A stretch of DNA of 64,000 nt from Alphaproteobacteria bacterium (lineage in GTDB: Bacteria; Pseudomonadota; Alphaproteobacteria; JANQMY01), in assembly GCA_028289425.1 (NCBI GenBank), contig JANQPL010000003.1, positions 186,001-250,000 of the forward strand. Direction: 5' to 3'. The first letter of the stretch is position 1, and every line of letters starts with the position of its first letter. Under the pieces are notes generated by a model, which worked only from the letters and a program-made list of their open reading frames with translations, made no database searches and had not been told where the DNA came from. This document shows positions 1 through 14,227 of this stretch, one piece after another. The position numbers and the translations under genes are program-made.

Positions 1-1
1 G

Positions 2-1954
2 ATCGAGCACAACCGCTCCTGCGATTTGCTGCCCGCCGCAGCGTTGCGCCAAAGCAGCAATCAAGGCCCCGCCACCACGGCCGATAATGAGATAGTTCGC
101 CTGGTCGCAGGCGACAAATCCCGCGCGCAGCACAATGCGATCGGGACGATGTTCCGACTCGTCCATTAGGAGTTCATCCGCAAGCAGTGGAACAATACGG
201 CTAAGACGCACATCGCTGGCGATTATTCGAGTATCGCGCAGAACGGTGTAGCCTTGAGCCCCTTTCACGATGGAAATCTTTTGCACGTCCTCCGCCAAGG
301 AATTAGGTGTAGCATCTGCCAGAAGTTCCAACCGACGGCCTATCGGGTCATGCGTGTACTGAATTAGATAGGCGGCGGCCTGGGTTTGCACATGCGTCTC
401 ACCGACCCATTGGTCCCCATTGTCCTCCGATTTCCGAGATTTCTGAGGCTGCTGGTCGGACAGCCGCACCAATCCCTTTTGCCCCCAATCGGCGAGCGTA
501 TTCCATACATCGCGCGCGATTTGGTGTTTAGGAACCGGTGCCTGAGCCGCCAATTGATCGATGATCTGGCTGGGCTTCAAGCCTTCGGCGAGCTGAAGCC
601 AAATGAACGTGGCGGTTTCATTCGGCACAAAGAACTGGCGGACCGTCCGCGCATAAAGCGCCAGCGCGTCGCCGGAAACGAACTCCTCCACCTCATTGGG
701 CACGAGCTCGATCTCCGGCATGGGCGAGCAGCCTACGTGTTCGGCCAACACCAAATCACTGTAGCGGGGCACCGGAAACGATGTGAGATACCGGGACGGG
801 TCTTCCCCAGGGAACACGCATCGATAATCGCCAATACGTGACTGTTCCCAATCCCACTCGGCCTCGATCCGCTCGTCGAAGGTCAACGCCGACCAATCGG
901 GCCTTTCTTCGTTTGCACCGATCATGGACACCAAGTCGACAACCAACTGCCGTTTGATGCGCGCTTCATCAATGCCGCCATCCTCCGGTCCGGAACAGAC
1001 ATCCAAAGACGGGCTCAAGTTACACTCAAGGATCCATGGTTTCAGGTCCGCGTCCACCATGCAGTCCAAGCCGAACAATTCGTAACACCCGTCGCTATCG
1101 ACGCCGGTCGTCTCGATTCGTTGCCGCATGCGTTCGCGGGCCGACATCATGGTCAGTACAATGAGGTCTTCGAGATCCTGAAAGATGCGTTTGTCGTCAT
1201 GCCCTTGATCGCGCAGCCATTGCCGGTACTTGGAAAACGGGATGAAAACCACCGACGCCGGCGCATCTTCGTTTTCTTCGTTCACGTCCGGATTTGTCAG
1301 ATGCACGAACAGGTTTTTGAGGCTGGTCGGGTCGGTCGAATAGGGTTCGGAGGCGAGTTTCGCGAAACCTTCCTTGTACCAATAAACCCGCAAGGGGTCG
1401 ACGGACTGGATGACCACATAGCACCGCAGGACATATTTGTGTCCATTGTAAAGGTGCGGCCTGTGCAGATACTCCTGCACCATCCAATCTTCCCCTTTGG
1501 GCGCCAAGGCCGCATCCTCAAGAACTTGAATGCCCCGCCCCCGTGACAGGCCTTTCGGCTTTTGAATCCAGAGCTTGTTCGGATTCTTGTCCGCCGCTTC
1601 CTGCAGGTCAAAATAGTCCTCGGGCATCGAGTAAACGCGTGGGAAGAAATCGAAACGTTCGGCGAGCTTATGACCGTCGAGCCTTTTACGCGCCTTCAAC
1701 AGCGACTGATACAACAGGCTTTTGACCGTAAGCCCATTATTGCCTGGAATGTGATTGACCGTTTTTCCCGGTTCCAGCGCCTTGAACACCCGCGTCTCGG
1801 GCATACCCGTGAACCAATAGGCATCCCAATCGTCGGCCGTTCCCAGTTCCCACTGCGCCGAATCCAAGGCCGCTTCGAATGCGGCATCCTGGCCTTCGGA
1901 CCATTTTCCGCCAAACCAATATTTTCGGCGGCGCTTGTTGGATGTTTTGTCCAT
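2..1954 (-). CDS. Tubulin-tyrosine-ligase-like ATP-grasp protein fused to PqqD-like and degenerate HprK-like domains (partial, C-terminus off left edge)
   Basis: Starting at the ATG at 1954, the minus strand has no stop for 651 codons and runs off the window. Residues about 45-320 are a TTL/TTLL domain: VNHIPGNNGL near 67, WIQKPKGLSRGRGI at 129-142 (ATP-binding K and glycine loop), VQEYLHRPHLYNG near 159, HLTN at 218-221, and ELFGLDCMVD followed by WILECNLSPSL (E310 and N312 as the Mg-binding pair). Residues about 415-498 resemble PqqD (TATFIWLQLAEG, then a helical stretch ending in KGLV). Residues about 535 to the edge resemble HPr-kinase-related proteins, but the P-loop position reads IIGRGGGALIAAL and lacks the GK[ST] core. 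TTL enzymes ligate amino acids to proteins with ATP; bacterial substrates are unknown. PqqD domains bind peptides in RiPP pathways, so a peptide-modifying ligase is my inference. TTL call firm, PqqD fair, HprK tentative. Confidence 0.85.
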   Translation of the reverse strand, partial: MDKTSNKRRRKYWFGGKWSEGQDAAFEAALDSAQWELGTADDWDAYWFTGMPETRVFKALEPGKTVNHIPGNNGLTVKSLLYQSLLKARKRLDGHKLAERFDFFPRVYSMPEDYFDLQEAADKNPNKLWIQKPKGLSRGRGIQVLEDAALAPKGEDWMVQEYLHRPHLYNGHKYVLRCYVVIQSVDPLRVYWYKEGFAKLASEPYSTDPTSLKNLFVHLTNPDVNEENEDAPASVVFIPFSKYRQWLRDQGHDDKRIFQDLEDLIVLTMMSARERMRQRIETTGVDSDGCYELFGLDCMVDADLKPWILECNLSPSLDVCSGPEDGGIDEARIKRQLVVDLVSMIGANEERPDWSALTFDERIEAEWDWEQSRIGDYRCVFPGEDPSRYLTSFPVPRYSDLVLAEHVGCSPMPEIELVPNEVEEFVSGDALALYARTVRQFFVPNETATFIWLQLAEGLKPSQIIDQLAAQAPVPKHQIARDVWNTLADWGQKGLVRLSDQQPQKSRKSEDNGDQWVGETHVQTQAAAYLIQYTHDPIGRRLELLADATPNSLAEDVQKISIVKGAQGYTVLRDTRIIASDVRLSRIVPLLADELLMDESEHRPDRIVLRAGFVACDQANYLIIGRGGGALIAALAQRCGGQQIAGAVVLD

Positions 1955-2265
1955 GCTCAACTTTCTATGACGAAAACATGTCATGCGCGCAATTCGATTC
2001 GGCCACGCCGGAGGCCGTGGGGCGCAACGGCACGTGCCGCAAAGCCCTAATCCTAAGGTTTTATCAACTTCGCCGGAAATCGAGCGTTTTTCTTGGAAGA
2101 ATTGCGATTTGGGGTCATAATAATCGCGTGATTGGCCTGTTACAGGTTGGCGCGCGGAAAGACCTTTCAAGCTTTAGCTGATTGGTCGAACCGACGCGCT
2201 TGCGGGCTTGCTTACGCGTGGGGTGCCTGTGCAGGCTCGGAGGACATGACGGATCGGGGGGATCA
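1955..2265. other. Divergent intergenic region
   Basis: This 311-bp gap separates the minus-strand TTL-like gene from the plus-strand TPR/hydrolase operon, so it must hold two divergent promoters. It contains a small GC-rich inverted repeat (CCACG/CGTGG type, near 2007-2024). I see no convincing short ORF in it, and in particular no recognisable precursor-peptide gene. Confidence 0.5.
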
Positions 2266-3885
2266 ATGTCTTTTCTGAGAGGTTTAGTTTTTTCGCTGGC
2301 TATCGTTGTGCTGGGCACACTGGCCTTGGCCGCTGGCCGGTGGAGCGGATTCATCACGGACCCATCACCCGACCGTCCGGATAGCGAACAGGCCGGAGAA
2401 GTCGGTTGCGCGCCCGTATCGGCGCGATCAGTCTCTGCACTCAATGAAGAGGTCGTCAATCTCTATTCCCGCGGAGACGGTGACTGCGCATACGAACTGG
2501 CCGTACGCGCGCTCGACGACGCCCGCGCGAATTTAGACTCAAACGATCCTGCTCATATTGACGCGTTGAACAATCTTGCCCGTCTCGAATCGGATTCAGA
2601 TAACTGGGAACAGGCCGCAGCGTTGTACCAAGAAGTGGTCGATAACTATGTCGACAACGACATGGACTACGAAGACGCAGAGCAAGCGCGCTTCCGCCTC
2701 GCGGCCGCGCTCGGTCAATCCGGTCAGCCTCAGGAGGCCGACAGGATTTATGCGGAGATCCGGGACCGGCGGGCCGAAACGGAAGCCCCCGCCGCGCCTC
2801 AGCCCGAATCAAGCGAACCGCCGATTTCGGCACAAAAAAGGACCACCCGCGGCGCCGGCCAGGCCGGGGACAGCGGGCACAGTGAAATCGATGTGTTTTA
2901 CGGCACCGACCGGGCCCCCAGCGTGGACGATGGAATCGTTCAGTATACGTCTGATCAAGATGGTGAATTGCACCTTGGCGTCGCCACGGTCACGATTCCG
3001 GCGTCACACACCTATGGGGGCTTGGAAAGCCCAAGTATTTGGCGGCTTGAATTCCGGCCAAATCCGGATCGCCACGTTATTCTGAAAAGTGTGGATCCGC
3101 TGGATGAAAACACCTTCCAGAGCGCTCTTGAACGCTACATGGACCGGGCGGACTCACGGGAAGCCTTCGTGTTTGTCCACGGCTACAATGTGACGTTCGA
3201 GGACGCGGCCCGCCGCACGGCCCAAATGGCCTACGACATGCAATTTCCGGGGGCCCCGATCTTCTATAGCTGGCCATCGCGGGGACAATTGCTGTCCTAT
3301 GCGCGCGATGAAACCATGGTTCAGCGCACGGTGCCTTATCTGTCAGAGTTTCTGACCATGATCGCCCGCGAGACGGGCGCGGAAACCGTGCACCTCATCG
3401 CCCACAGTATGGGCAACCGTGCCATGACAAACGCCCTCAAAATCCTGCACCAGGAATCGGATGAAATTGATGGGCCGCTGTTCAATGAGATCCTATTGGC
3501 GGCCCCCGACATTGACGTGGAAGTGTTCCGCCAGATTTCTGACGCGGTGATCGGCATGGGCGCCGGAACGACGTTGTATGCATCCGCGAATGACAAAGCA
3601 CTGGGCGCCTCGCGGCGACTCCGCAAGGATCTGACGCGGCTTGGCGACACGCGCGATGGCGTGACGGTCATCCGCAATATGGAATCGGTGGATGCGTCTT
3701 TGGTTTCTTCCGACTTCTTAGGTCACGGTTACTTCGCCGACAGCCGCACCGTGTTGGGCGATATTGATCTTCTCATCGACACCGGCTTGCGCGCCGAGGA
3801 ACGGGGGCTGCGGCCCCAGCAAAACTCAGCCGGGCAAACCTATTGGCGTGTCCAGCCCTGTGGTGAAACGGCGCTTGTCTGCTGA
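2266..3885 (+). CDS. Exported TPR-like / DUF900-type alpha/beta hydrolase
   Basis: The frame is open upstream, but the ATG at 2266 follows a purine-rich GGGGGG box and begins a membrane anchor or signal sequence (FLRGLVFSLAIVVLGTLALA). The product is 539 aa. Residues about 50-180 are helical and TPR-like (LNNLARLE, AAALYQEVV). From about 210 comes an alpha/beta hydrolase of the DUF900/COG4782 type: it opens with DVFYGTDRAP and contains FVHGYNVTFEDAARR, FYSWPSRG and the nucleophile elbow LIAHSMGNRAM. Family members are serine esterase/lipase-like enzymes of mostly unknown substrate. It heads a three-gene operon of exported proteins (24 bp to the next gene). The anchor implies action in the periplasm or at the envelope. 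The fold is confident; the substrate is unknown. Confidence 0.85.
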   Translation: MSFLRGLVFSLAIVVLGTLALAAGRWSGFITDPSPDRPDSEQAGEVGCAPVSARSVSALNEEVVNLYSRGDGDCAYELAVRALDDARANLDSNDPAHIDALNNLARLESDSDNWEQAAALYQEVVDNYVDNDMDYEDAEQARFRLAAALGQSGQPQEADRIYAEIRDRRAETEAPAAPQPESSEPPISAQKRTTRGAGQAGDSGHSEIDVFYGTDRAPSVDDGIVQYTSDQDGELHLGVATVTIPASHTYGGLESPSIWRLEFRPNPDRHVILKSVDPLDENTFQSALERYMDRADSREAFVFVHGYNVTFEDAARRTAQMAYDMQFPGAPIFYSWPSRGQLLSYARDETMVQRTVPYLSEFLTMIARETGAETVHLIAHSMGNRAMTNALKILHQESDEIDGPLFNEILLAAPDIDVEVFRQISDAVIGMGAGTTLYASANDKALGASRRLRKDLTRLGDTRDGVTVIRNMESVDASLVSSDFLGHGYFADSRTVLGDIDLLIDTGLRAEERGLRPQQNSAGQTYWRVQPCGETALVC

Positions 3886-3909: not shown

Positions 3910-4518
3910 ATGAAACCAAAACGACCCTGGGGCGGATTGTTTTCCGTTTTGGTGGGCCTAATCGTCGCCGTTTCACTGGCGCATCCGGTTCAGGCTCAAA
4001 GCAACGTGCCGAAACGGATCGAGCTTACGCCCGACTTGGGTCCGCGGGCGCTTGAAGATTTTGCCCAACCGCCTGAGGAATTTTTCGCGGAGGTCGGGCT
4101 GACCTTCGATGTGGAGAAGACAAACTATAAGGAGATCGAAGATCTCACATTTCCCGTTTTGGTGCCCAAGAGCCGGCCCTTCTTGGAAAACGTGGTTTTC
4201 TACAAAGTCAGTGACTTTCAATACTCCGCCAGCTCGACGACGGACGGCATCGCAGTGGAAATTGTCGGCACGACTGTCGCCTATGAAGTGCCCGTGACCA
4301 CCTCCAAAGACTTTGAAGCGGTTTTAAAGTCATTGTCCCTCGATTTTTCCTATGACCCGGAGATGCAGTTGGCGGAGTCGACGGTGACGATTTATGGCAT
4401 TCCCTACATCATCACGGTCGAATGCATGCTGCCCGGCGATCAACGTTGTGCTAATCCGGGTTTCACCGACAACAATATCAAGAACAAACTCCAACCCATT
4501 GGGAAGCCCAAGTCATGA
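3910..4518 (+). CDS. Secreted protein of unknown function
   Basis: Product of 202 aa. The ATG at 3910 has a GGAGA ribosome-binding site and is followed by a classic signal peptide ending around AHPVQAQ, so the protein is exported. The mature part is rich in charged and beta-forming residues and has one Cys pair near the C-terminus (ECMLPGDQRC) that could form a disulfide. No catalytic motif or known domain is recognised. It is the middle gene of the operon with the DUF900-type hydrolase upstream and the M23-like lipoprotein downstream, and it overlaps the latter by 4 bp (ATGA), so the two are probably translated together. Confidence 0.75.
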   Translation: MKPKRPWGGLFSVLVGLIVAVSLAHPVQAQSNVPKRIELTPDLGPRALEDFAQPPEEFFAEVGLTFDVEKTNYKEIEDLTFPVLVPKSRPFLENVVFYKVSDFQYSASSTTDGIAVEIVGTTVAYEVPVTTSKDFEAVLKSLSLDFSYDPEMQLAESTVTIYGIPYIITVECMLPGDQRCANPGFTDNNIKNKLQPIGKPKS

Positions 4519-5279
4519 GACGGAAGCTTTCTCTTTTTTTGTCATCGCTGCTTCTATTAGGGCTCACCATGTGCGGTCCGTCGCCTGACACCGACGCGCC
4601 ATCCGATCCTGACACGGCGGAGCCAACTCCGACGCCGTCACTCGACCACACCCCGGCGGGCATTTTGGTGCCGGCTACCAGCGGTCCCGGCAATCGTGAC
4701 GAAACGGTCTATGCACCGGACATGAGATTCCCCTTGGAAGAGGGTCCCGCCTTCCTTAACTCCCAGATCTATGGCGTGGGCGGTTCGTTCGGCGCAAACG
4801 ATTGCACCACGGCCATATGCGAGTGCGATCCGCGAAATTATAGTCTTCCGTGGCATGACAATTTTTGCGAGTCGCGCAGCCGCATCGTTCGGGGATGCCC
4901 CACGGGCGGTGGTCACCAGGGCCAAGACATTCGCCCCGCAACTTGCGAGGACAAGACCCATTGGGCGGTCGCCGCTGAGGCCGGGCGCATCACCAATATC
5001 GGCAAATACTCCGTCTATCTCTTGGGCGAAAACACCGGCATTCGTTACCGCTACCTCCATTTGGAAATGGCGGGACTGGCTGTCGAGAAAGGCGACAGAG
5101 TTGAATCGGGGGACCGCATCGGCATGGTTTCCCGGGATTTCGGCACGGCGCTCACCACCTTGCATCTTCATTTCGATATGAATGCACCGATCAAAGACGC
5201 CGAAGGGCGGCCCCGAAACACCTACATTTCGCCGTATCAGTCCCTGGTGGAAGCCTATCAACGGCTAGACGAGCAATAA
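4515..5279 (+). CDS. M23-family peptidase-like lipoprotein
   Basis: Product of 254 aa. The N-terminus is a lipoprotein-type signal (LLLLGLTMC, Cys20; the lipobox is imperfect) followed by a Pro/Asp/Thr-rich linker. Residues about 125-235 carry the LytM/M23 pattern: GGGHQGQDI (H and D zinc ligands), RYLHLEMAGL, GDRIGMVS and LHLHFDMN (active-site and ligand histidines). M23 enzymes cleave peptide cross-links of peptidoglycan, or act as inactive amidase activators when zinc ligands are missing; here the ligands look intact. Four cysteines between about 97 and 133 suggest disulfides in the periplasm. The start codon overlaps the preceding stop (ATGA). Confidence 0.8.
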   Translation: MRRKLSLFLSSLLLLGLTMCGPSPDTDAPSDPDTAEPTPTPSLDHTPAGILVPATSGPGNRDETVYAPDMRFPLEEGPAFLNSQIYGVGGSFGANDCTTAICECDPRNYSLPWHDNFCESRSRIVRGCPTGGGHQGQDIRPATCEDKTHWAVAAEAGRITNIGKYSVYLLGENTGIRYRYLHLEMAGLAVEKGDRVESGDRIGMVSRDFGTALTTLHLHFDMNAPIKDAEGRPRNTYISPYQSLVEAYQRLDEQ

Positions 5280-5296: not shown

Positions 5297-7336
5297 TCAA
5301 TTTGTGGAGCTGACGACTTTTAGCGGGACGGTCGACATGGTCCAGGCGCTGTCCTCAACATATCCGCCGCGGGATTTCTCCAACGCCAGATAATCGTCAA
5401 GCGCCATAAACAGCGCACTTTGAGAACTGCCGCGCGAGGCGCTGCGGGTCGCCGCCGTTTCCGTTAGCAAATCCCAACGCACCTTGTTGTCTTCTTGCGT
5501 GCCAAAAATCAGGATGTGATCAACCACATTCAGTGGCGGCTGCGCAATAAAAGTCGATGCAAATGTGTGGGACTGCCCCACACCCACCAGCGGCCCGATA
5601 CCGTCCTGCGGGAAGCCGAACATGCTTCCGTCAGTCGACAGAATGATCCCACCGACATGCAACGGTACCGGCGCATCCTCATCCAGCTCAACGCGAATCC
5701 GAAAGCCGTCGCACTTGGGAACAATGTATTGCTTGTTAGGCCCGGAGCTTGTCCAACCGGCATCCGTCGCCACCTTGGCGGGACATTCGCCCCGATCGCG
5801 ATCGAGCGGCGCCGGCACCAACGTCACCCGGAGCGTTTGGTCGTCGGAGAACGAGCCGCCGCCCTCGCCGCGCAGGCTGATGAGAGCTTTCTGGCGTGCG
5901 TGCAGCCATAGCAAGCTGGCTATTGTCGATGCTTCACCGGATGACCCAGCCGAGATTTCATTGCGCACTGCGCCATTGCTGTCGATGATGATCGCATCGC
6001 CATCGGCGTTCTGAGCGACTTCAAACTCGGCGGCACCATCTTCCACATCAATAAGACGGTTTGCTTCGTCGTCGCGGTCAATTGCCTGTCGGAAAGCCGC
6101 GACGCGGTCCGACGACAGGCCGCTTGCGGCATCTTCACTCTCCAAGCGAAACCTGACGGTCAGCTTCCGAAACGTTGTGCTGACCCGCGCCAGAAAAGCA
6201 AAATCGCCCACTTCAATTTCCGCGTCATCACCACCAGCGACAATGGTTCCCGTGCCCTGAGACACGCTGCCCCGCGAAATCTCGATGGTTGCCTTCGCCT
6301 TACCTGGGTCTTGTGTATCGGATACGGACGCGTCTTTGTCATAGATTCTGAACTGGGCGCCGATGCCAGCGCCTGCCAAGAAGGGGCCGGAAACCTCCAC
6401 CACCGCGATGTTGGCGCCCGTGACGAACCACGCGTCCGTCCGCCCGGTTTTCCGTGCATCGAACACCTGCCGCTCAAGGCTTCCTTGGAAATAGGGAACT
6501 TGAGATGTGCGCGACTTCAACGACCGGCGCACAAGGGGTTCGGCTTGATCGTATGTGATCGATTCCGATTTGCTGAGCACTTCAATGAGCGCGTCCGTGA
6601 ATATTCCGTAGCCATTCGTTTCGAGGGCGGCCGTGGAATCGCCGGCCGCAGACAGAACAACAATCCCCGGCAGGCTTTCCGGCACATAGTTTTCGTAGAC
6701 CGCCAAATCGCCGACCGGCTCGTCATCTTCGAACTCTCTCGTCCATAGGCGGGCACGCGCCGTATTGTTTGCCCCCCGCGTTGCCGTCGCTGAATTGCAG
6801 CTATCCAGAATAACGGTGATATTCTGAGATTTGTTGTGAACCTGTTTCAGAAGGGCGTTGAACTTGTCATCCGTCAGCTGACGGTTATCCCGCGTTGAAT
6901 CGTACAGAACCAAGGTTTCATCAAGTCCGTCGGGTTCATCGGAGTCCGCACGCTCCCGCAACTGGCTGCCATGCCCCGCAAAGTAGATGACCACTTCGTC
7001 ACCTGCCGACACACGCGGCACCAGCCAATCGCTCACAGCCGCCACCACATTGGCGTAAGACGCGTTTTCGTCAGTCAACCGGCAGACATTTTGCTTCGGG
7101 AAATTGTAGCCACGGCTGCTCGTTAGCAGGTCGTACATACGCTCGCTATCGCGCACGGCCCCGCCAAGATCGGGAATCTCGTCCAAATTGTAGTCGTCGA
7201 TCCCGATGAGAAGCGCGTGCTGAGCGACCCCATTAGCGCGCACCACAGACCCGCTTGGGCATTCTCCGTTCGCATATGCGAAACTTGGGACCAACAGCCC
7301 GAAAACAGCCAAAAAACTCGAAATACGCAACAACAT
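5297..7336 (-). CDS. Exported caspase-like (peptidase C14) protein
   Basis: The frame is open further upstream, but the ATG at 7336 begins a signal peptide (LLRISSFLAVFGLLVPSFAYA) and follows a GGTGGGG box. The product is 679 aa. Residues about 38-290 are a caspase/metacaspase p20-type domain: ALLIGIDDYN, then VVIYFAGHGSQLRE (catalytic H122) and ITVILDSCNSA (catalytic C180). The remaining 390 residues are beta-rich with no domain I recognise. C14 proteases cut after basic or acidic residues and in bacteria are tied to stress responses, defence or cell death; a signal peptide points here to the periplasm or surface. It is divergent from a second exported caspase 256 bp away and convergent with the M23-like operon. 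Confidence 0.88.
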   Translation of the reverse strand: MLLRISSFLAVFGLLVPSFAYANGECPSGSVVRANGVAQHALLIGIDDYNLDEIPDLGGAVRDSERMYDLLTSSRGYNFPKQNVCRLTDENASYANVVAAVSDWLVPRVSAGDEVVIYFAGHGSQLRERADSDEPDGLDETLVLYDSTRDNRQLTDDKFNALLKQVHNKSQNITVILDSCNSATATRGANNTARARLWTREFEDDEPVGDLAVYENYVPESLPGIVVLSAAGDSTAALETNGYGIFTDALIEVLSKSESITYDQAEPLVRRSLKSRTSQVPYFQGSLERQVFDARKTGRTDAWFVTGANIAVVEVSGPFLAGAGIGAQFRIYDKDASVSDTQDPGKAKATIEISRGSVSQGTGTIVAGGDDAEIEVGDFAFLARVSTTFRKLTVRFRLESEDAASGLSSDRVAAFRQAIDRDDEANRLIDVEDGAAEFEVAQNADGDAIIIDSNGAVRNEISAGSSGEASTIASLLWLHARQKALISLRGEGGGSFSDDQTLRVTLVPAPLDRDRGECPAKVATDAGWTSSGPNKQYIVPKCDGFRIRVELDEDAPVPLHVGGIILSTDGSMFGFPQDGIGPLVGVGQSHTFASTFIAQPPLNVVDHILIFGTQEDNKVRWDLLTETAATRSASRGSSQSALFMALDDYLALEKSRGGYVEDSAWTMSTVPLKVVSSTN

Positions 7337-7509
7337 CCCCACCGAAAGTCCCCCTCTTTGGCTTGATACGCATTCTACTCCGCCCACAGCCGGTGGCAAA
7401 TGGTGATCTGACGACCCCGGAAAAATCCGCTGGATCCCGCAGCGCCCCGCTGTTTTGCAGTTTTCTATGACAGGGCGATGACGAACCCAATTGGCCGTGT
7501 CGCTTGTGC

Positions 7510-7538
7510 TTAACCCCAGCCGCAGGGCTTGCTATACT
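7510..7538 (+). promoter_or_regulatory. Probable sigma70-type promoter of the second caspase gene
   Basis: TTAACC (7510-7515), a 17-bp spacer and TATACT (7533-7538) fit a housekeeping promoter. Transcription would start near 7545, about 48 bp before the ATG at 7593. The site lies in the 256-bp intergenic region between the two divergent caspase genes. Confidence 0.45.
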
Positions 7539-7592
7539 TTCGCGACATCGATCAGTTCTTGTTTGGGCGTCGATATTCAATGGGGGAGATTC

Positions 7593-9911
7593 ATGGGACG
7601 TTTGTCTGCAGCGTTTGCAGGGCTGGTATTGGCCTTGATGCCAGCGGTTGCTCAGGCGGAAGGGGTAGTCCTTACCAAATCCGACCGGCTTGTGGTCACG
7701 GCAGAAATTGTTGGCGACAACGCGGTTATCGTTCTGGAGTCAATCTCCGACACGACGAATAATCTTTCGGGGAAGTTTCCGGCGGTCGACTTCTCAGGCA
7801 TTCGGGTTGATGTCAATCAAAACGGCAGAGTGGATGAACGTGTCGATGTAGCCTACGGCATTGTGGGCGGATCCGCCGACCGCATCTGCACACAATATCT
7901 GCTTACGGAAAACTCCTCGACCGGGTGCGGTGGATTTAGGTCGAACGCCACTGTTAAGTCGGAGTTCAAAAATACCGCCCACGGACCCGCGCCCCATCCG
8001 GTTTGGACCTACACCATCCCCAAGGATGAAATTTCACAAAACGGCTCGTTCGCCCACCTCACATTCAAGATCTACGAAGCGGGACGCGGTTATACCCAAA
8101 TGCCGAAGCCGACGCGGACAAATCTGTCGTTCTCCAAAGTTACCACGCTCAACTTCAACCGCGTCGTCACGTTCCTTAAATCCAGAAGAGATCGGATCAT
8201 ACAGCCGAAAGTCATCAAAGACCCAAGCGAGCCGAACCCAACTGGCGTTACGGGAGAATTGGTCCGTACGGAAGACCACATTGTGTCCGTTCGGAAGAGT
8301 GAAACGCGCGTTCAATTCATCTTGGAAGCGATCGGCGACGACACCGACAACCTCAAGGGCGGATGGCCGGCCGTTGATTTCGTCAGCATCGGCAGCGATG
8401 TGGACCAGAACGGCACGGTGACGCGGAACGTTGATGTGGAATACGGCATCTCCGGCGGCGCCTATGACAAAATCTGTACCCAATATCTGCTCACGGAAAG
8501 TTCCTCGACGGGGTGTAACGGCTTCTCGTCCGCGGCGACCATGTCGGCACGATTCGTGCCCACACCCAATCAACCGCGGCCTCATCCCATATGGGTTTTC
8601 ACCATCCCGAAAAGTGAGCTAGGTCCGGATGGAAAGACGGCACATCTGTTCTTCCGTTTTCACAATGCGGGGAAGGGCTACAAGCGCTTTCCCACACCGC
8701 GCGACTCGAAGAAGTTTTCAAGCTCCATCGCACTAGACCTAGGAACCCTCGAAGCACGTTTCCTTCCGGAGGAAACGATCGAAGAAGCGTTACCACCGGA
8801 CGTGGCCGAGGCGGATGCGGATACAGGCGTAGAAACCGTTGCGAACGACACATCGCCGCCGCTCATCGCTCTTACGTCGCCGGCCGTGGAACCGGGCGCG
8901 CGCGTTTCCCATCCCAACAAAGAGATCGATATTGAAGGCATCGCCGAAGACGATAGCGGGATTTACGAGATCCTTGTGAATGGCGAAGAGGCGGCCGTAA
9001 CCGCCGGTGGCGACTTCAGCAAGGAAGTGCGCCTTGCGTTCGGCGACAATCCAATCACCGTGACCGCCACTGACTTGAAAGATAATAAGGCGGAATTTGT
9101 CATCACGGTCGTGCGGGAAACCGCCACCGAAGAAGACATTTCATCCGACGACGCGTCGCGCGGCGTTGGTTCCGTGGATGAGGACACGGCGGCGGAGATT
9201 CGCGAAGGGGATTCCTTCGCCCTGCTGATCGCCATCCAGGACTATGATGATCCCAACATTGTCGATTTGGACAATCCGGTCAGTGATGCGCGGAAGCTGA
9301 AAGACGTCTTGCTCGCCAGTTACGACTTCGAGCCTGAAAACGTCACGCTGCTGGAAAACCCGGACGAAGACGGCGTCTATTCTGCGATGCAGTCCATGGC
9401 ATCTCAAGTAACCGAAGCCGACAGTGTCATCATCTTCTATGCGGGCCACGGCCAATGGGATGAACAGATTTCACAAGGCTATTGGTTGCCCAGCGACGCG
9501 GCGGCGGACCGCACGTCCAACTGGATCAGCAATGGCGACATTCGCGACGAGATCAAACGCCTACAGAGCAAACATACGCTGGTAATTTCGGATGCTTGCT
9601 TCAGCGGCGGCATCTTCAAAACACGTGCCGGCATTGCAGATGCAAGCCGTGCGGTTCAAGAACTTTATGGACTGCCCAGCCGAAAGGCGATGACCAGCGG
9701 CACGCTAACGGAAGTTCCCGATAAAAGCGTGTTCCTGGAGTATTTCGTCAAACGCCTCGAAGACAACACCAATCCGTTCTTGTCGGCGGATCAGCTGTTT
9801 GCAAGCTTCCGGGCGGCTGTCATGAACAACAGCCCGAACACACCGCAATATGGCGTGATCTTTGAAGCCGGCGACGAAGGTGGCGAATTCATCTTTGTAC
9901 GGAAAGAATAA
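7593..9911 (+). CDS. Exported caspase-like protein with duplicated N-terminal module and Ig-like domain
   Basis: The ATG at 7593 has a GGGGGAG ribosome-binding site and starts a signal peptide (LSAAFAGLVLALMPAVAQA). The product is 772 aa. Two copies of a module of about 160 residues follow (about 28-190 and 228-380). Shared signatures are FPAVDF/WPAVDF, DVxQNG, ICTQYLLTE, SSTGC and HPVWTYTIPK/HPIWVFTIPK. Next, about 425-520, is a bacterial Ig-like domain (IALTSPAVEPGARV to NPITVTATDLKDN). The C-terminal 220 residues are a caspase domain: FALLIAIQDYDDP, IIFYAGHGQWDE (H619) and VISDACFSGGIF (C669). It is probably an extracytoplasmic protease whose N-terminal modules bind a ligand or substrate; that role is inferred. 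Convergent with the carboxylase gene, 2 bp apart. Confidence 0.88.
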   Translation: MGRLSAAFAGLVLALMPAVAQAEGVVLTKSDRLVVTAEIVGDNAVIVLESISDTTNNLSGKFPAVDFSGIRVDVNQNGRVDERVDVAYGIVGGSADRICTQYLLTENSSTGCGGFRSNATVKSEFKNTAHGPAPHPVWTYTIPKDEISQNGSFAHLTFKIYEAGRGYTQMPKPTRTNLSFSKVTTLNFNRVVTFLKSRRDRIIQPKVIKDPSEPNPTGVTGELVRTEDHIVSVRKSETRVQFILEAIGDDTDNLKGGWPAVDFVSIGSDVDQNGTVTRNVDVEYGISGGAYDKICTQYLLTESSSTGCNGFSSAATMSARFVPTPNQPRPHPIWVFTIPKSELGPDGKTAHLFFRFHNAGKGYKRFPTPRDSKKFSSSIALDLGTLEARFLPEETIEEALPPDVAEADADTGVETVANDTSPPLIALTSPAVEPGARVSHPNKEIDIEGIAEDDSGIYEILVNGEEAAVTAGGDFSKEVRLAFGDNPITVTATDLKDNKAEFVITVVRETATEEDISSDDASRGVGSVDEDTAAEIREGDSFALLIAIQDYDDPNIVDLDNPVSDARKLKDVLLASYDFEPENVTLLENPDEDGVYSAMQSMASQVTEADSVIIFYAGHGQWDEQISQGYWLPSDAAADRTSNWISNGDIRDEIKRLQSKHTLVISDACFSGGIFKTRAGIADASRAVQELYGLPSRKAMTSGTLTEVPDKSVFLEYFVKRLEDNTNPFLSADQLFASFRAAVMNNSPNTPQYGVIFEAGDEGGEFIFVRKE

Positions 9912-9913
9912 CC

Positions 9914-12900
9914 TTACCACGTATCGACGCAGGGGCGCTTTTTACCTCTGCGGGGCGCGGGCGGCGGTGCACTGCGTAACGCCCCCATGATCCATTTTCG
10001 CGAGTCCGCCGGATCGATCACATCATCGATCTCGAAAAGCGACGCCGTATTGACCGCCTTGCCGTGCGCATACATCCGCGCCACCATCTTGTCGAACAGC
10101 TCCTTGCGCTCTTGTGGATCTTCCAGCGCCTCAAGTTCTTTCCGGTAGCCGAGTTTCACGGCCCCTTCCAGCCCCATGCCGCCGAACTCGCCCGTTGGCC
10201 AGGCTACCGTAAACATGTTTGCTTTGAAGCCGCCGCCCGCCATGGCTTGCGCACCCAGGCCATAGCCCTTGCGCAACACGATCGTAAAGTACGGAACGGA
10301 GACGCTCGCGCTTGTGACGAACATGCGCGCCGCATGGCGCACCAGGGCAGTTTTTTCAACCTCCGGGCCTACCATAATGCCGGGCGTGTCCGCCAGGAAC
10401 AGCAGCGGAATGTCGTGGGCATCGCACAATTGTATAAAGCGCGTTGCCTTGTCCGCACCGTCACTGTCGATGGCGCCGGCCAGATGGTTCGGGTTGTTGG
10501 CCACAATGCCAATCGGCCGGCCTTCGATACGGGCCAGTACCGTGACCATGCCAATACCAAATCCTTTTCGGATTTCGAGGACCGAACCCGTATCCGCCAA
10601 GGTTTCGATCACTTTGCGCACATCGTAAATGCGCAGCCGATTTTCCGGGATGATGGACCGAAGCAATCGCTGGTCTGCGTGCCCGGGATCGGGCAGCGTT
10701 CCTTGGAAATAAGATAGATATTTCTTGGCCGTCGCCACGGCTTCGATTTCATCCGCCACCGGAATATCAATGACGCCGTTCGGCACTTGCACATCCACCG
10801 GCCCAACTTCCTCGGGTCGGTAGATCCCCAGGCCACCCCCTTCGATCATGGCGGGGCCACCCATACCGATATTGGAGTTCTCTGTTGCAATGATCACATC
10901 GCAGCAGCCCAACAGAGCCGCATTACCTGCAAAACAACGGCCGGAATTGATGCCGACCACAGGAACGAGACCGCTTAGTTCCGCAAAGTATTGGAAAGCC
11001 AGACAATCCAGCCCCGCGGCCCCAATGCCGTCCGTGTCGCCGGGCCGACCGCCCCCGCCTTCCGTGAAGAACACGGTCGGCAGCTCCGATTTCCGCGCAA
11101 GCTCGAACATGCGGTCTTTCTTGCGGTGGTTTTGCATGCCTTGCGTACCGGCGAGCACCGTATAGTCGTACGACATGATTGCGCAGCGGCTGTCTTTGTC
11201 ATCGAACAGATCGCCATTGACCGTGCCGACGCCCGCGATCAACCCATCCGCCGGCGTATTGTCGATCAAATCGTCCATTTCACGGCGGCGGCGTTGGGCC
11301 GCAATCACGATCGGCGCATACTCCACAAAGCTACCGGGGTCACACAGATCCTCTACATTCTCGCGCGCCGTCCGCTGATTGGTCTTGCGGCGCCGGGCAA
11401 CCGCCGTCGGCCTGTTTTCGTCGTAGCCCTTGGCATGACGGTCCAACACCTCCTGAAGGTCAGGCCGGATGTAATCCAAATCAATCTCGGTCTCAGAGTC
11501 CGCGCCCGCCGCGGACACTTCCGCTTCCTCCACGAACACCAGCGGGTGATCTTCGAAAACCGTATCGCCGGCCCCAACGGTGATCTCGCGCACAATGCCG
11601 CTTTGATTTGCGCTGACGACGTGTTCCATCTTCATGGCTTCCATCACCAAAAGTTGTTGGCCGGCATGGACTTCTTGACCGGCTGTCACGTCGATCGCAA
11701 CGATCGTTCCCTGTATCGGCGCCCGCACAGCATTTGTGTTGTCGGGCCCGACAACGTCCGAATTCGAAATGATGGTCTGTTCGGGCGCGACCGGGGCTGC
11801 CGATGCGCCCGTACCATTCTTGCCGTGCGCCAATACGGCAAGCGGATCCGAACTGTCGATCGCCGCGCCCGCCCGTCTTGGCGCCGCCGTCGCATCGTTC
11901 GCGGCCCGCTGTCCGAAATGCAGCGGCACGTGTTCCGCGCCATCCGCGGCCACGAATGTCTCGGACCGGTCGTCCACAAACCGTGTATAGATTTTTCCGG
12001 CCCGAAAATCCGCATCCCGCAGCACATTCATTAAGAACGGAATGTTGGTGGCCACGCCGTCCACACGGGTTTCCTGAAGCGCTCGGTACGCTTTGGCGAC
12101 GGCGGGCGCAAAGTCATTGCGCGAGGTGTGGGTGATGACTTTTGCGATTAAAGAATCGAAACGCGGATTGCTCGCATATCCCGTATAGCCGTAGCTATCC
12201 ACCCGCACGCCACGGCCCGACGGCATATCAAAAGCCGTAAGCGTGCCGCCGGCGGGACGTGCCGTACCGTCAGCGGCCATGCGTTCCATGTTGACCCGCG
12301 TTTGAATGGCGAATCCGTTTTTGGGCACCACATCGTTCTGCATCAAATTGAGGTCGGAGAACGATTGTCCGCCCGCAATCTCGAGCTGAAGGCTCACAAG
12401 ATCCACATCGGCGATTTCTTCGGAAATCGTGTGCTCCACTTGCAGCCGGGCATTGGCTTCGATGAAGGCAAATGCGCCGTCGTTATCGCCGGCCACGTCC
12501 ACCAGGAACTCGAACGTGCCGAGATTTTTGTAGTTGACGCTTTCCGCCATTTGGTAGGCCGCTTGAATGATCCGTTGTCGGAGGGCCGAATCAAAATTGG
12601 GCGCCGGTGCAATCTCAATGATCTTTTGCTGCTGGCGCTGAATGCTGCAATCCCGCTCCCCAAAATGAAGAACGCGTCCCGTCCCGTCCCCGGCGATTTG
12701 AACTTCAATGTGGCGCGCCTTGGGAATAAATTCTTCCACATAGACATCGCCATTGCCGAAAGCTGACTTCGCTTCCGACTGGCATCGCTCATAAGCTTGA
12801 TCGATGTCCGCCTCATCGGACACGGCGCGCATGCCCCGCCCGCCGCCGCCGGCTAGGGCTTTGATCATTATCCCCCGGCCACCGCCGAGCTTCTTGAAAA

Positions 12901-13336
12901 ACGCTTTCACGTCGGTAAGGGAAGTTGCACCGTCCGTCCCCTGAAGAACCGGAATGCCCACCTGTTGCGCAAGGGCGCGGGCGGCGGCCTTGTCGCCGAA
13001 CAGCGCCAGCGTCTCCGGCGACGGGCCCACGAAGATGAGTCCCGCTTCTTGGCACGCGCTCGCGAATTCGGCGCTTTCACTTAAGAAGCCGTAGCCGGGG
13101 TGAACGGCATCGCAGCCACTTTTCTTGGCCGTTGCGACGAGCTGCCCGATATCCAGATAGGCTGCCACGCCCTGACCATTGAGTGCCACGGCGCTGTCCG
13201 TTTTGCGCACATGCAGCGACGCCGCGTCATCTTCCGAATGCACTGCAAACGTTTCGATACACAAATCGGCGGCCGCCCGTGCGACCCGGATCGCAATTTC
13301 CCCCCGATTGGCAATAAGCAATTTCTTGATTGTCAT
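9914..13336 (-). CDS. Single-chain multidomain biotin-dependent acyl-CoA carboxylase
   Basis: Product of 1140 aa combining a whole carboxylase in one chain. Residues 1-450 are biotin carboxylase (KKLLIANRGEIAIRVARAA at the N-terminus, KALAGGGGRGM ATP-grasp loop, EANARLQVEHTISE). Residues about 530-605 are the biotinyl domain, with the acceptor lysine K569 in EAMKMEH. Residues about 640-1125 are the carboxyltransferase (YDYTVLAGTQGMQNHRK, VGINSGRCFAGNA, PGHADQRLL, LADTPGIMVGPEVE, RKGYGLGAQAM). This layout matches the single-polypeptide long-chain acyl-CoA carboxylase (LCC) type rather than the split AccABCD or PCC. The substrate (acetyl-, propionyl- or longer acyl-CoA) cannot be read from the sequence. 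Biotin synthesis genes lie about 2.5 kb away. Confidence 0.92.
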   Translation of the reverse strand: MTIKKLLIANRGEIAIRVARAAADLCIETFAVHSEDDAASLHVRKTDSAVALNGQGVAAYLDIGQLVATAKKSGCDAVHPGYGFLSESAEFASACQEAGLIFVGPSPETLALFGDKAAARALAQQVGIPVLQGTDGATSLTDVKAFFKKLGGGRGIMIKALAGGGGRGMRAVSDEADIDQAYERCQSEAKSAFGNGDVYVEEFIPKARHIEVQIAGDGTGRVLHFGERDCSIQRQQQKIIEIAPAPNFDSALRQRIIQAAYQMAESVNYKNLGTFEFLVDVAGDNDGAFAFIEANARLQVEHTISEEIADVDLVSLQLEIAGGQSFSDLNLMQNDVVPKNGFAIQTRVNMERMAADGTARPAGGTLTAFDMPSGRGVRVDSYGYTGYASNPRFDSLIAKVITHTSRNDFAPAVAKAYRALQETRVDGVATNIPFLMNVLRDADFRAGKIYTRFVDDRSETFVAADGAEHVPLHFGQRAANDATAAPRRAGAAIDSSDPLAVLAHGKNGTGASAAPVAPEQTIISNSDVVGPDNTNAVRAPIQGTIVAIDVTAGQEVHAGQQLLVMEAMKMEHVVSANQSGIVREITVGAGDTVFEDHPLVFVEEAEVSAAGADSETEIDLDYIRPDLQEVLDRHAKGYDENRPTAVARRRKTNQRTARENVEDLCDPGSFVEYAPIVIAAQRRRREMDDLIDNTPADGLIAGVGTVNGDLFDDKDSRCAIMSYDYTVLAGTQGMQNHRKKDRMFELARKSELPTVFFTEGGGGRPGDTDGIGAAGLDCLAFQYFAELSGLVPVVGINSGRCFAGNAALLGCCDVIIATENSNIGMGGPAMIEGGGLGIYRPEEVGPVDVQVPNGVIDIPVADEIEAVATAKKYLSYFQGTLPDPGHADQRLLRSIIPENRLRIYDVRKVIETLADTGSVLEIRKGFGIGMVTVLARIEGRPIGIVANNPNHLAGAIDSDGADKATRFIQLCDAHDIPLLFLADTPGIMVGPEVEKTALVRHAARMFVTSASVSVPYFTIVLRKGYGLGAQAMAGGGFKANMFTVAWPTGEFGGMGLEGAVKLGYRKELEALEDPQERKELFDKMVARMYAHGKAVNTASLFEIDDVIDPADSRKWIMGALRSAPPPAPRRGKKRPCVDTW

Positions 13337-13366
13337 GATGATCTTTTACGTTTTTGTTTTCGGCCG

Positions 13367-14227
13367 CTACGTTGATGCGTGCACCAACCAAATGGCCCCG
13401 CTCAAACTCACCTTACCGTTCTTTACATGTTTCGCGAGGGCGTCGGCAACCTTGGCCCGAACTTGCGCCACGTCAGATTCGTCGGCCTCGTCGAGAAGCC
13501 GCTTAAGCGGCCCGAAGGACACATAAAAGTCTGCAGCTTGCTCAACACCGAAATCATCCGACATCGCCATTTCCGCTTCGCGTCCCACAATCTCGATATT
13601 GCGATAGCCTGCTTTGCTCATTATGTCGTGCACATAGTCTTTTTCCCCGAACGCAAACGGACCGGGGGCGCGAGGCGGCAGCGGCTCGGGCGGTGGCAAC
13701 ACTTCTAGAGCGGCCATAATCGGCACAAGGAAGAATGTGTTCTTGGGCATTTCCTGCCAGCACGCAAACACCATGCGGCCGTCCGATTTCATTGCCCCTC
13801 GCATGTTCTCGAAAGCGACATACGGTTCGCCGAAAAACATCACCCCAAAACGCGAAAAGATGAGGTCTGCCGAGTTGGACGCAAACCCGTAGGCCCCCGC
13901 ATCGGCCACCTCGAAGGACACGTTCGTCACGCCCGCCGCATCGGAACGCTTACGCGCCTCTTCGATGAGGGGCACGGAAATATCCACACCCAACACCTGC
14001 CCGTCAGGTGCCGCCTGTTCTGCTAAAGCCACAGCCGTGCCGCCCGTTCCGCAGCCGATATCGATGATGGTTTCGCCTTTTTGAGCGGCGGCGGCTTCCA
14101 ACGCTATCGACTGCAATGGAACGAGAAACCGGTCGATGGTATCGAAATTTTCAAGCCAGGTTTCGCCGCCCTCGCCGTTCCAATATTCGTCTTGTTCCTG
14201 CTGGAATCGTTTCGCCGTCTCGTCCAT
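13367..14227 (-). CDS. Class I SAM-dependent methyltransferase
   Basis: Product of 286 aa with the SAM-binding motif I IIDIGCGTGGTAVAL at about 54-68, an acidic loop-2 VLGVDIS and a VADAGAYGF stretch. It resembles UbiE/Methyltransf_11-type enzymes acting on small molecules or lipids. The substrate is unknown. It sits 30 bp upstream of the carboxylase in the same orientation, so co-transcription is possible. It is not convincingly BioC, although biotin genes lie nearby. Confidence 0.85.
   Translation of the reverse strand: MDETAKRFQQEQDEYWNGEGGETWLENFDTIDRFLVPLQSIALEAAAAQKGETIIDIGCGTGGTAVALAEQAAPDGQVLGVDISVPLIEEARKRSDAAGVTNVSFEVADAGAYGFASNSADLIFSRFGVMFFGEPYVAFENMRGAMKSDGRMVFACWQEMPKNTFFLVPIMAALEVLPPPEPLPPRAPGPFAFGEKDYVHDIMSKAGYRNIEIVGREAEMAMSDDFGVEQAADFYVSFGPLKRLLDEADESDVAQVRAKVADALAKHVKNGKVSLSGAIWLVHAST

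Follow-up and report, generated by a model that had tools for sequence, protein, structure and literature searches.

A putative leader-guided TTLL-type ligase and its candidate exported substrates in Alpha- and Gammaproteobacteria

We describe a bacterial protein in which a tubulin-tyrosine-ligase (TTL)-type ATP-grasp domain is joined to a PqqD domain and to an HprK-like domain that has lost its P-loop, and which is encoded beside a small protein made up of a signal-peptide-like leader and a glutamate-rich EGEA-repeat tail. Comparative evidence makes it very probable that the enzyme modifies the leader-EGEA protein under the guidance of the leader. The acceptors are probably glutamate side chains, and the chances that the donor is glutamate are about even. 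The reading as a whole, in which a leader-guided peptide ligase would attach glutamate to Glu side chains within the EGEA tract prior to export through Sec, is one that sequence comparisons lead us to favor slightly.

The enzyme gene lies at the edge of the 64,000-nucleotide stretch of DNA analyzed (the window), which covers positions 186001-250000 of one contig in a 5.4-Mb genome of 20 contigs. An open frame on the minus strand reaches from 1954 to the edge of the window, and its translation agrees with the initial annotation; read in the assembly, the frame runs on past the edge and yields a 777-residue protein (Table 1). The ATG at 1954 aligns with the start codon of a relative whose enzyme is 60% identical. 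A model of the whole protein from three sequences had a pLDDT of only 36. Elsewhere in the window are two caspase-domain (PF00656) genes (5297-7399, minus strand; 7491-9911, plus strand), near genes for a DUF900 hydrolase with TPR (2182-3885) and an M23 peptidase (4515-5279).

Table 1. Features of the enzyme gene and of its proposed substrates. Coordinates are those of the window, continued past its edge with base 0 immediately preceding base 1, unless a locus handle (L) is given.
Feature	Position	Strand	Basis or remark
Enzyme gene (TTL-PqqD-HprK-like), window part	1..1954	-	777 codons + stop; gene end at -379, outside the window
TTL/TTLL-type ATP-grasp domain, residues 63-325	980..1768	-	PF03133, E 2.5e-60
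Nucleotide-binding KPKGLSRGRGI, residues 132-142	1529..1561	-	TTLL6 alignments, column counts
E310-C311-N312, ExN metal site of ATP-grasp enzymes, followed by LSPSL	1019..1027	-	Invariant in 62/62 readable sequences
GDYRCVFPGEDPSRYLTS, residues 375-392	779..832	-	Similar to GGFRLIYPG..EKY of TTLL6, which follows the catalytic domain
PqqD / RRE-type leader-binding domain, residues 439-496	467..640	-	PF05402, 39.4 bits (cut-off 23.4)
HprK-like domain without P-loop, residues 505-777, window part	1..442	-	hhalign; remainder outside the window, down to -376
Proposed substrate gene	-746 to -453 (L003:3254-3547), outside the window	+	Convergent, 73 bp from the enzyme stop
Leader-EGEA-cytochrome c fusions	L028:5595-6491, L111:7811-8617, L113:11511-12194, L110:16751-17518, L029:2487-3200		SoxA/TsdA-like where tested

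The ligase domain belongs clearly to the TTL family, scoring 204.6 bits against PF03133 where the curated cut-off is 20.1. The motifs KP...RGRGI, HLTN, and E310-C311-N312 are all present in the translation, and every ATP-grasp catalytic position that we checked (KP, the K/R pair, D, and ExN) is invariant across the 62 readable sequences. When a profile of this domain was compared with structures in the PDB, it scored 210 bits to TTLL6 (E 4e-61), 177 to TTLL7 (6e-51), 97 to TTLL11, 74 to 5vlq (9e-20), and 60 to TTL itself (1e-15); 5vlq, deposited as LOC100158544, is presumably the glycylase TTLL3. By score, the domain is nearest to the tubulin polyglutamylases TTLL6 and TTLL7, not to TTL, a nearness that may stem in part from slower evolution. 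Residues 375-392 form a second, weak segment of alignment to both TTLL6 and TTLL7.

In the nucleotide loop, TTLL6 entries mostly have C-Q, and their ExN is mostly followed by H. In the bacterial enzymes these positions hold [SA]-[RK] (residues 137-138) and L. One TTLL6 deposit, 6vzq, reads A-R and I there, and we take it to be the variant that Mahalingan and colleagues (2020) engineered from chain elongation to chain initiation. The bacterial residues therefore look more like those of initiating enzymes, a resemblance that is suggestive only. In a tree of ligase domains, long branches divide the fusion enzymes from bacterial TTL proteins that have a single domain. Some single-domain TTL genes (L018:8978-10833, L019:7864-9761 and 12520-14163, L033:7759-9804) adjoin genes for exported-looking proteins with an N-terminal motif resembling W-x-[KR]-P-[VL]-V-x-x-[VI]-x-L-P-A-H-A-Q-T-[TS], several copies of which occur in L019; it is possible that they constitute a second TTL-substrate pairing.

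The initial annotation had proposed an HMM check of the three segments. This bore out PF03133 and PF05402, but TIGR04352 (HprK-related kinase A) was not listed above its curated cut-off for the enzyme in NCBIfam, which gave a weak lasso-PqqD match alone and no HprK model; likeness to HprK appeared by profile-profile comparison only. Some homologues have a PqqD domain that scores under the Pfam cut-off. For the enzyme, hmmsearch matched the domain to TbiB1 and TfuB1. A separate model of the PqqD-HprK half was confident over the PqqD segment only, its HprK-like part being too poor to use. Absence of a PqqD fold had been named in advance as grounds for reducing the claim to a plain TTL protein; in Foldseek, the best PDB matches of the modeled segment were lasso-peptide leader-binding B1 proteins (target TM 0.86-0.92), including TbiB1-leader complexes. 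TbiB1 and TfuB1 have both been solved with leader peptide bound. This fold, together with the conserved leader encoded next door, suggests that the PqqD domain binds a leader peptide.

For the C-terminal domain, a profile of 59 homologues covering the last 270 residues was aligned by hhalign to HprK-related proteins from 289 genomes. It matched PqqD-HprK fusions with 97.9% probability (E 3.5e-13), rising to 99.2% (5e-20) when the PqqD part was included, while column-shuffled and reversed controls reached at most 0.2%. The P-loop GxxxxGK[ST] is absent from this domain in the enzyme and in the full-length homologues examined; three chance GK[ST] strings among the homologues lack the rest of the motif. 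The description of the domain as a degenerate HprK-like fold stands. An intact P-loop in close relatives, which had likewise been named in advance as counting against the claim, was not seen in any of them; the intact version occurs in separate PqqD-HprK fusions. Loss of the P-loop in the enzyme and its homologues also led us to reject a still-active kinase.

A short precursor gene had been suspected beyond position 1, and one exists there. It encodes a 97-aa protein (MSKSEERQKLLGKLSKGLVYATPLLVAGAFATDAFAESKTLVVAEAEAAAEASAEGEAEGEAKAEGEAKAEGEAEGEAAAEAEAEGEAEGEAKAEAE, read from its GTG) with a signal-peptide-like leader and an acidic EGEA-repeat tail. The relative with the 60%-identical enzyme carries this gene at the matching position, and the two leaders are nearly identical. 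Over 46 leader codons, this alphaproteobacterial pair shows 22 synonymous differences and 4 nonsynonymous ones, so the leader is very likely a genuine coding sequence under purifying selection. Its conserved pattern is roughly LLxxLS[KR]GxxYxxP. A positive N terminus, a hydrophobic stretch, and an AxA-like site, the features of a Sec-type leader, were present in all 66 precursors examined, as judged by a simple rule of thumb based on hydropathy and the AxA site rather than by SignalP. The precursor tails are 36% Glu, 27% Gly, and 22% Ala, and Ala/Glu/Gly repeats could arise on their own as low-complexity sequence. The acidic tract lies at the very C terminus of most small substrates, whose terminal residues vary; three tails end in Gly-Tyr, comparable to the alpha-tubulin C terminus (L030:6949-7254, L031:6770-7093, and L032:3427-3699). 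None of the listed short precursors contains Cys, as a bufferin-type core would, and no MNIO gene was noticed on reading the flanks.

Genome sampling found roughly 95 homologues of the enzyme in Pseudomonadota. There were matches in 29 of 163 genomes of one bacterial family and in 61 of 240 genomes of a second (a few of these enzymes being split or truncated), families that we suspect from gene content to be Marinobacter- and Halomonas-type bacteria, and the fusion also occurs in Arenicellales-order genomes and in scattered Pseudomonadota. A contig scan with a single protein gave no match and an alignment-based scan gave two loci; the plasmid, phage, and viral collections searched had none. 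Two genomes encode the ligase in one ORF and the PqqD/HprK-like or HprK-like part in another, split by frameshift or naturally (G1295:C10:506740-509134 and G1313:C55:32729-35064). In another locus (L032:3700-5547) the enzyme frame stops inside the PqqD domain and a DoxX-like frame comes next, reflecting a deletion or an assembly joint.

Pairing of the enzyme with a precursor is strongly supported by comparative genomics. Sixty loci were fetched with 1.5-kb flanks (L077 and L079 being halves of one split locus), and in 57 of them a leader-EGEA gene lay within 1.5 kb, as expected of a RiPP precursor gene, and was usually co-directional. The exceptions were an enzyme fragment (L078) and a pair of closely related loci (L083 and L084) with no short substrate gene in the 1.5-kb flanks; a wider fetch for L083 found a leader-EAEA-cytochrome gene about 5 kb off. 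A short gene follows downstream in the same direction in 51 of 64 analyzed loci. The precursor is convergent, not operonic, in the alphaproteobacterial pair (the window's genome included) and in one Arenicellales-order genome. The usual order is enzyme, short precursor, and DinB-family gene, at times followed by a cytochrome fusion. About 51 loci have this DinB-family gene following the precursor (L111:11595-12140, L113:10909-11472, and the majority of L050-L109), and an ECF sigma factor gene is nearby in L110 and L111 (of the TIGR02943 family in L111).

Leader searches of 13 whole genomes, with E below 1e-11 counted as strong, pointed the same way. Eight of the nine genomes with the fusion enzyme had matches at E 4e-12 or better, all within about 5 kb of the enzyme; elsewhere in the 13 genomes nothing was better than E 0.04, and in the four without the fusion enzyme nothing was better than 0.56. 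The ninth (G385) is a 2.0-Mb assembly whose enzyme gene is cut off by the end of a contig. A leader HMM built solely from L050-L109 picked up both alphaproteobacterial leaders (E 1e-5 to 6e-5) as well as cytochrome leaders, and matched no unrelated protein among 5059 ORFs. The leader of an Arenicellales-order locus (L017) was missed by this HMM; leader homology is therefore weak there, resting on position and layout.

A second type of proposed substrate bears on the site of modification. Near the same enzyme, the leader and an EGEA tract are also found fused to a cytochrome c domain. In these proteins the tract sits between leader and cytochrome domain, and the C terminus is that of the cytochrome domain. 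Should the fusions be substrates, the ligase would have to act on side chains of Glu, and the internal position of the tract makes side-chain modification more likely than addition to a C-terminal tail. TTLL enzymes modify side chains in the Glu-Gly repeats of RPGR and in tubulin tails (PMC13052805). The initial annotation had envisaged a ligase extending the tail of a peptide or protein with amino acids, its HprK-like module converted to binding or scaffolding. That reading is supported: the conserved precursor gene, the leader common to the cytochrome fusions, and kinship with polyglutamylases would all fit such an activity. In one refinement, side chains are likelier acceptors than a C-terminal tail.

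We propose that the PqqD domain, probably together with the catalytically dead HprK-like domain, binds the N-terminal leader of the adjacent small protein. The TTLL-like ATP-grasp domain would then use ATP to activate Glu carboxylates in the EGEA/EAEA repeat, and an isopeptide bond would join an amino acid to the repeat Glu; the likeliest such amino acid is glutamate, which eukaryotic enzymes add to tubulin and RPGR. Because the leader looks like a Sec signal peptide, the modified protein would subsequently be exported via Sec and its leader removed. Cytochromes c with a leader and an internal EGEA tract would receive the same treatment. The product may perhaps serve as a periplasmic polyanion for cations or redox partners.

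Other explanations should be weighed against this proposal. Enzymes of the TTL family are known to take Glu, Gly, or Tyr as donors, so the Glu side chains might receive something other than glutamate, such as glycine (as in tubulin glycylation), another amino acid, a polyamine, or ammonia. The departures from TTLL6 at the C-Q and H columns of the active site would fit such a donor, but the far better profile scores to the glutamylases TTLL6, TTLL7, and TTLL11 than to 5vlq make it unlikely, if not negligibly so. It is also conceivable that residues are added to the C terminus of the EGEA protein, as TTL adds tyrosine and as RimK, a bacterial ATP-grasp enzyme, adds glutamates to ribosomal protein S6. 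The terminal acidic tract of most small substrates would suit this, as would the GY tails of three genomes, which recall the EY end of alpha-tubulin. We consider it distinctly unlikely, given the internal tract of the cytochrome fusions, the varied terminal residues of the small proteins, and the greater distance of TTL itself.

Lactam or ester cross-links from Glu to Lys, Ser, or Thr within the repeat, of the graspetide kind, would agree with ATP-grasp chemistry, a Glu-rich core, and the regular GEAK repeats of some tails. They are nevertheless improbable: some tails, such as those in G1118 and G1213, have no Lys and almost no Ser or Thr to pair with Glu or Asp in the core, and the top-scoring family is TTL. 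Finally, gene neighborhood is indirect evidence, and in the window's genome the two genes are convergent; the neighbors might be functionally unrelated, the acidic protein being a mere secreted polyanion and the ligase acting on something else. This is highly improbable, as the leader is conserved beyond its hydrophobicity across alpha and gamma groups and two protein types, strong leader matches lie near the enzyme gene only, and the enzyme carries a leader-binding domain.

The proposed leader-guided glutamylation has partial counterparts among known systems. RimK shares bacterial ATP-grasp protein glutamylation, but it works on a cytoplasmic C terminus, is not of the TTL family, and uses no leader. 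TTLL6 and TTLL7 have a homologous ligase domain with the same catalytic residues, and the TTLL5-RPGR pair offers an acidic, Glu-Gly-rich acceptor tract like the one seen here. In that pair, a separate docking region holds the substrate (PMC13052805). In contrast to the tubulin polyglutamylases and TTLL5, the present system is bacterial, would dock its substrate through the PqqD and HprK-like module, has a substrate with an export signal, and involves no tubulin. Bufferins are MNIO-modified RiPPs whose precursor leader is a Sec signal peptide (PMC12452194); they resemble our system in this leader, in repeated short motifs, and in a doxX gene near some loci, but they are Cys-based and depend on an iron-dependent oxidative enzyme with a DUF2063 partner, whereas the enzyme here is a ligase and the repeat lacks Cys. 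Graspetides likewise combine an ATP-grasp ligase with a ribosomal precursor (PMC8939145), but our enzyme is of another ATP-grasp family, its repeat has no general Lys, Ser, or Thr partner, and the PqqD-type leader-binding domain is fused to it. The PqqD and HprK-like half is homologous to PqqD-HprK fusions such as a 377-aa protein in G186. Those fusions keep the P-loop, and the one in G186 sits with a nucleotidyltransferase; the present enzyme lacks the P-loop and carries an additional TTL domain. In a distant relative from the same class, the gene for a PqqD-HprK fusion whose P-loop is intact adjoins an NTP_transf_5 gene (L009:1462-2595 and 2592-3719).

The view that no system of this architecture had been described has held up so far: neither the precursor nor the fusion is covered by a model in Pfam or NCBIfam, and a search of the open-access literature, a scope that excludes most subscription papers, returned no bacterial TTL-PqqD system. 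Whether this is a new class of bacterial leader-guided modification, in which a TTLL-type glutamylase with its own leader-binding module acts on Glu-Gly/Ala repeats of exported peptides and cytochromes in Alpha- and Gammaproteobacteria, seems to us evenly balanced.

If so, bacteria would have their own equivalent of tubulin polyglutamylation, directed at exported proteins and encoded by neighboring enzyme and substrate genes, and RiPP-type biosynthesis would come to include the TTL enzyme family. The system would also show how an HprK-like module can be retained after loss of its kinase site. As the system is frequent in two bacterial families, genetics should be feasible, and it would provide a simple two-gene setting for how TTLL enzymes pick their acceptor glutamates.
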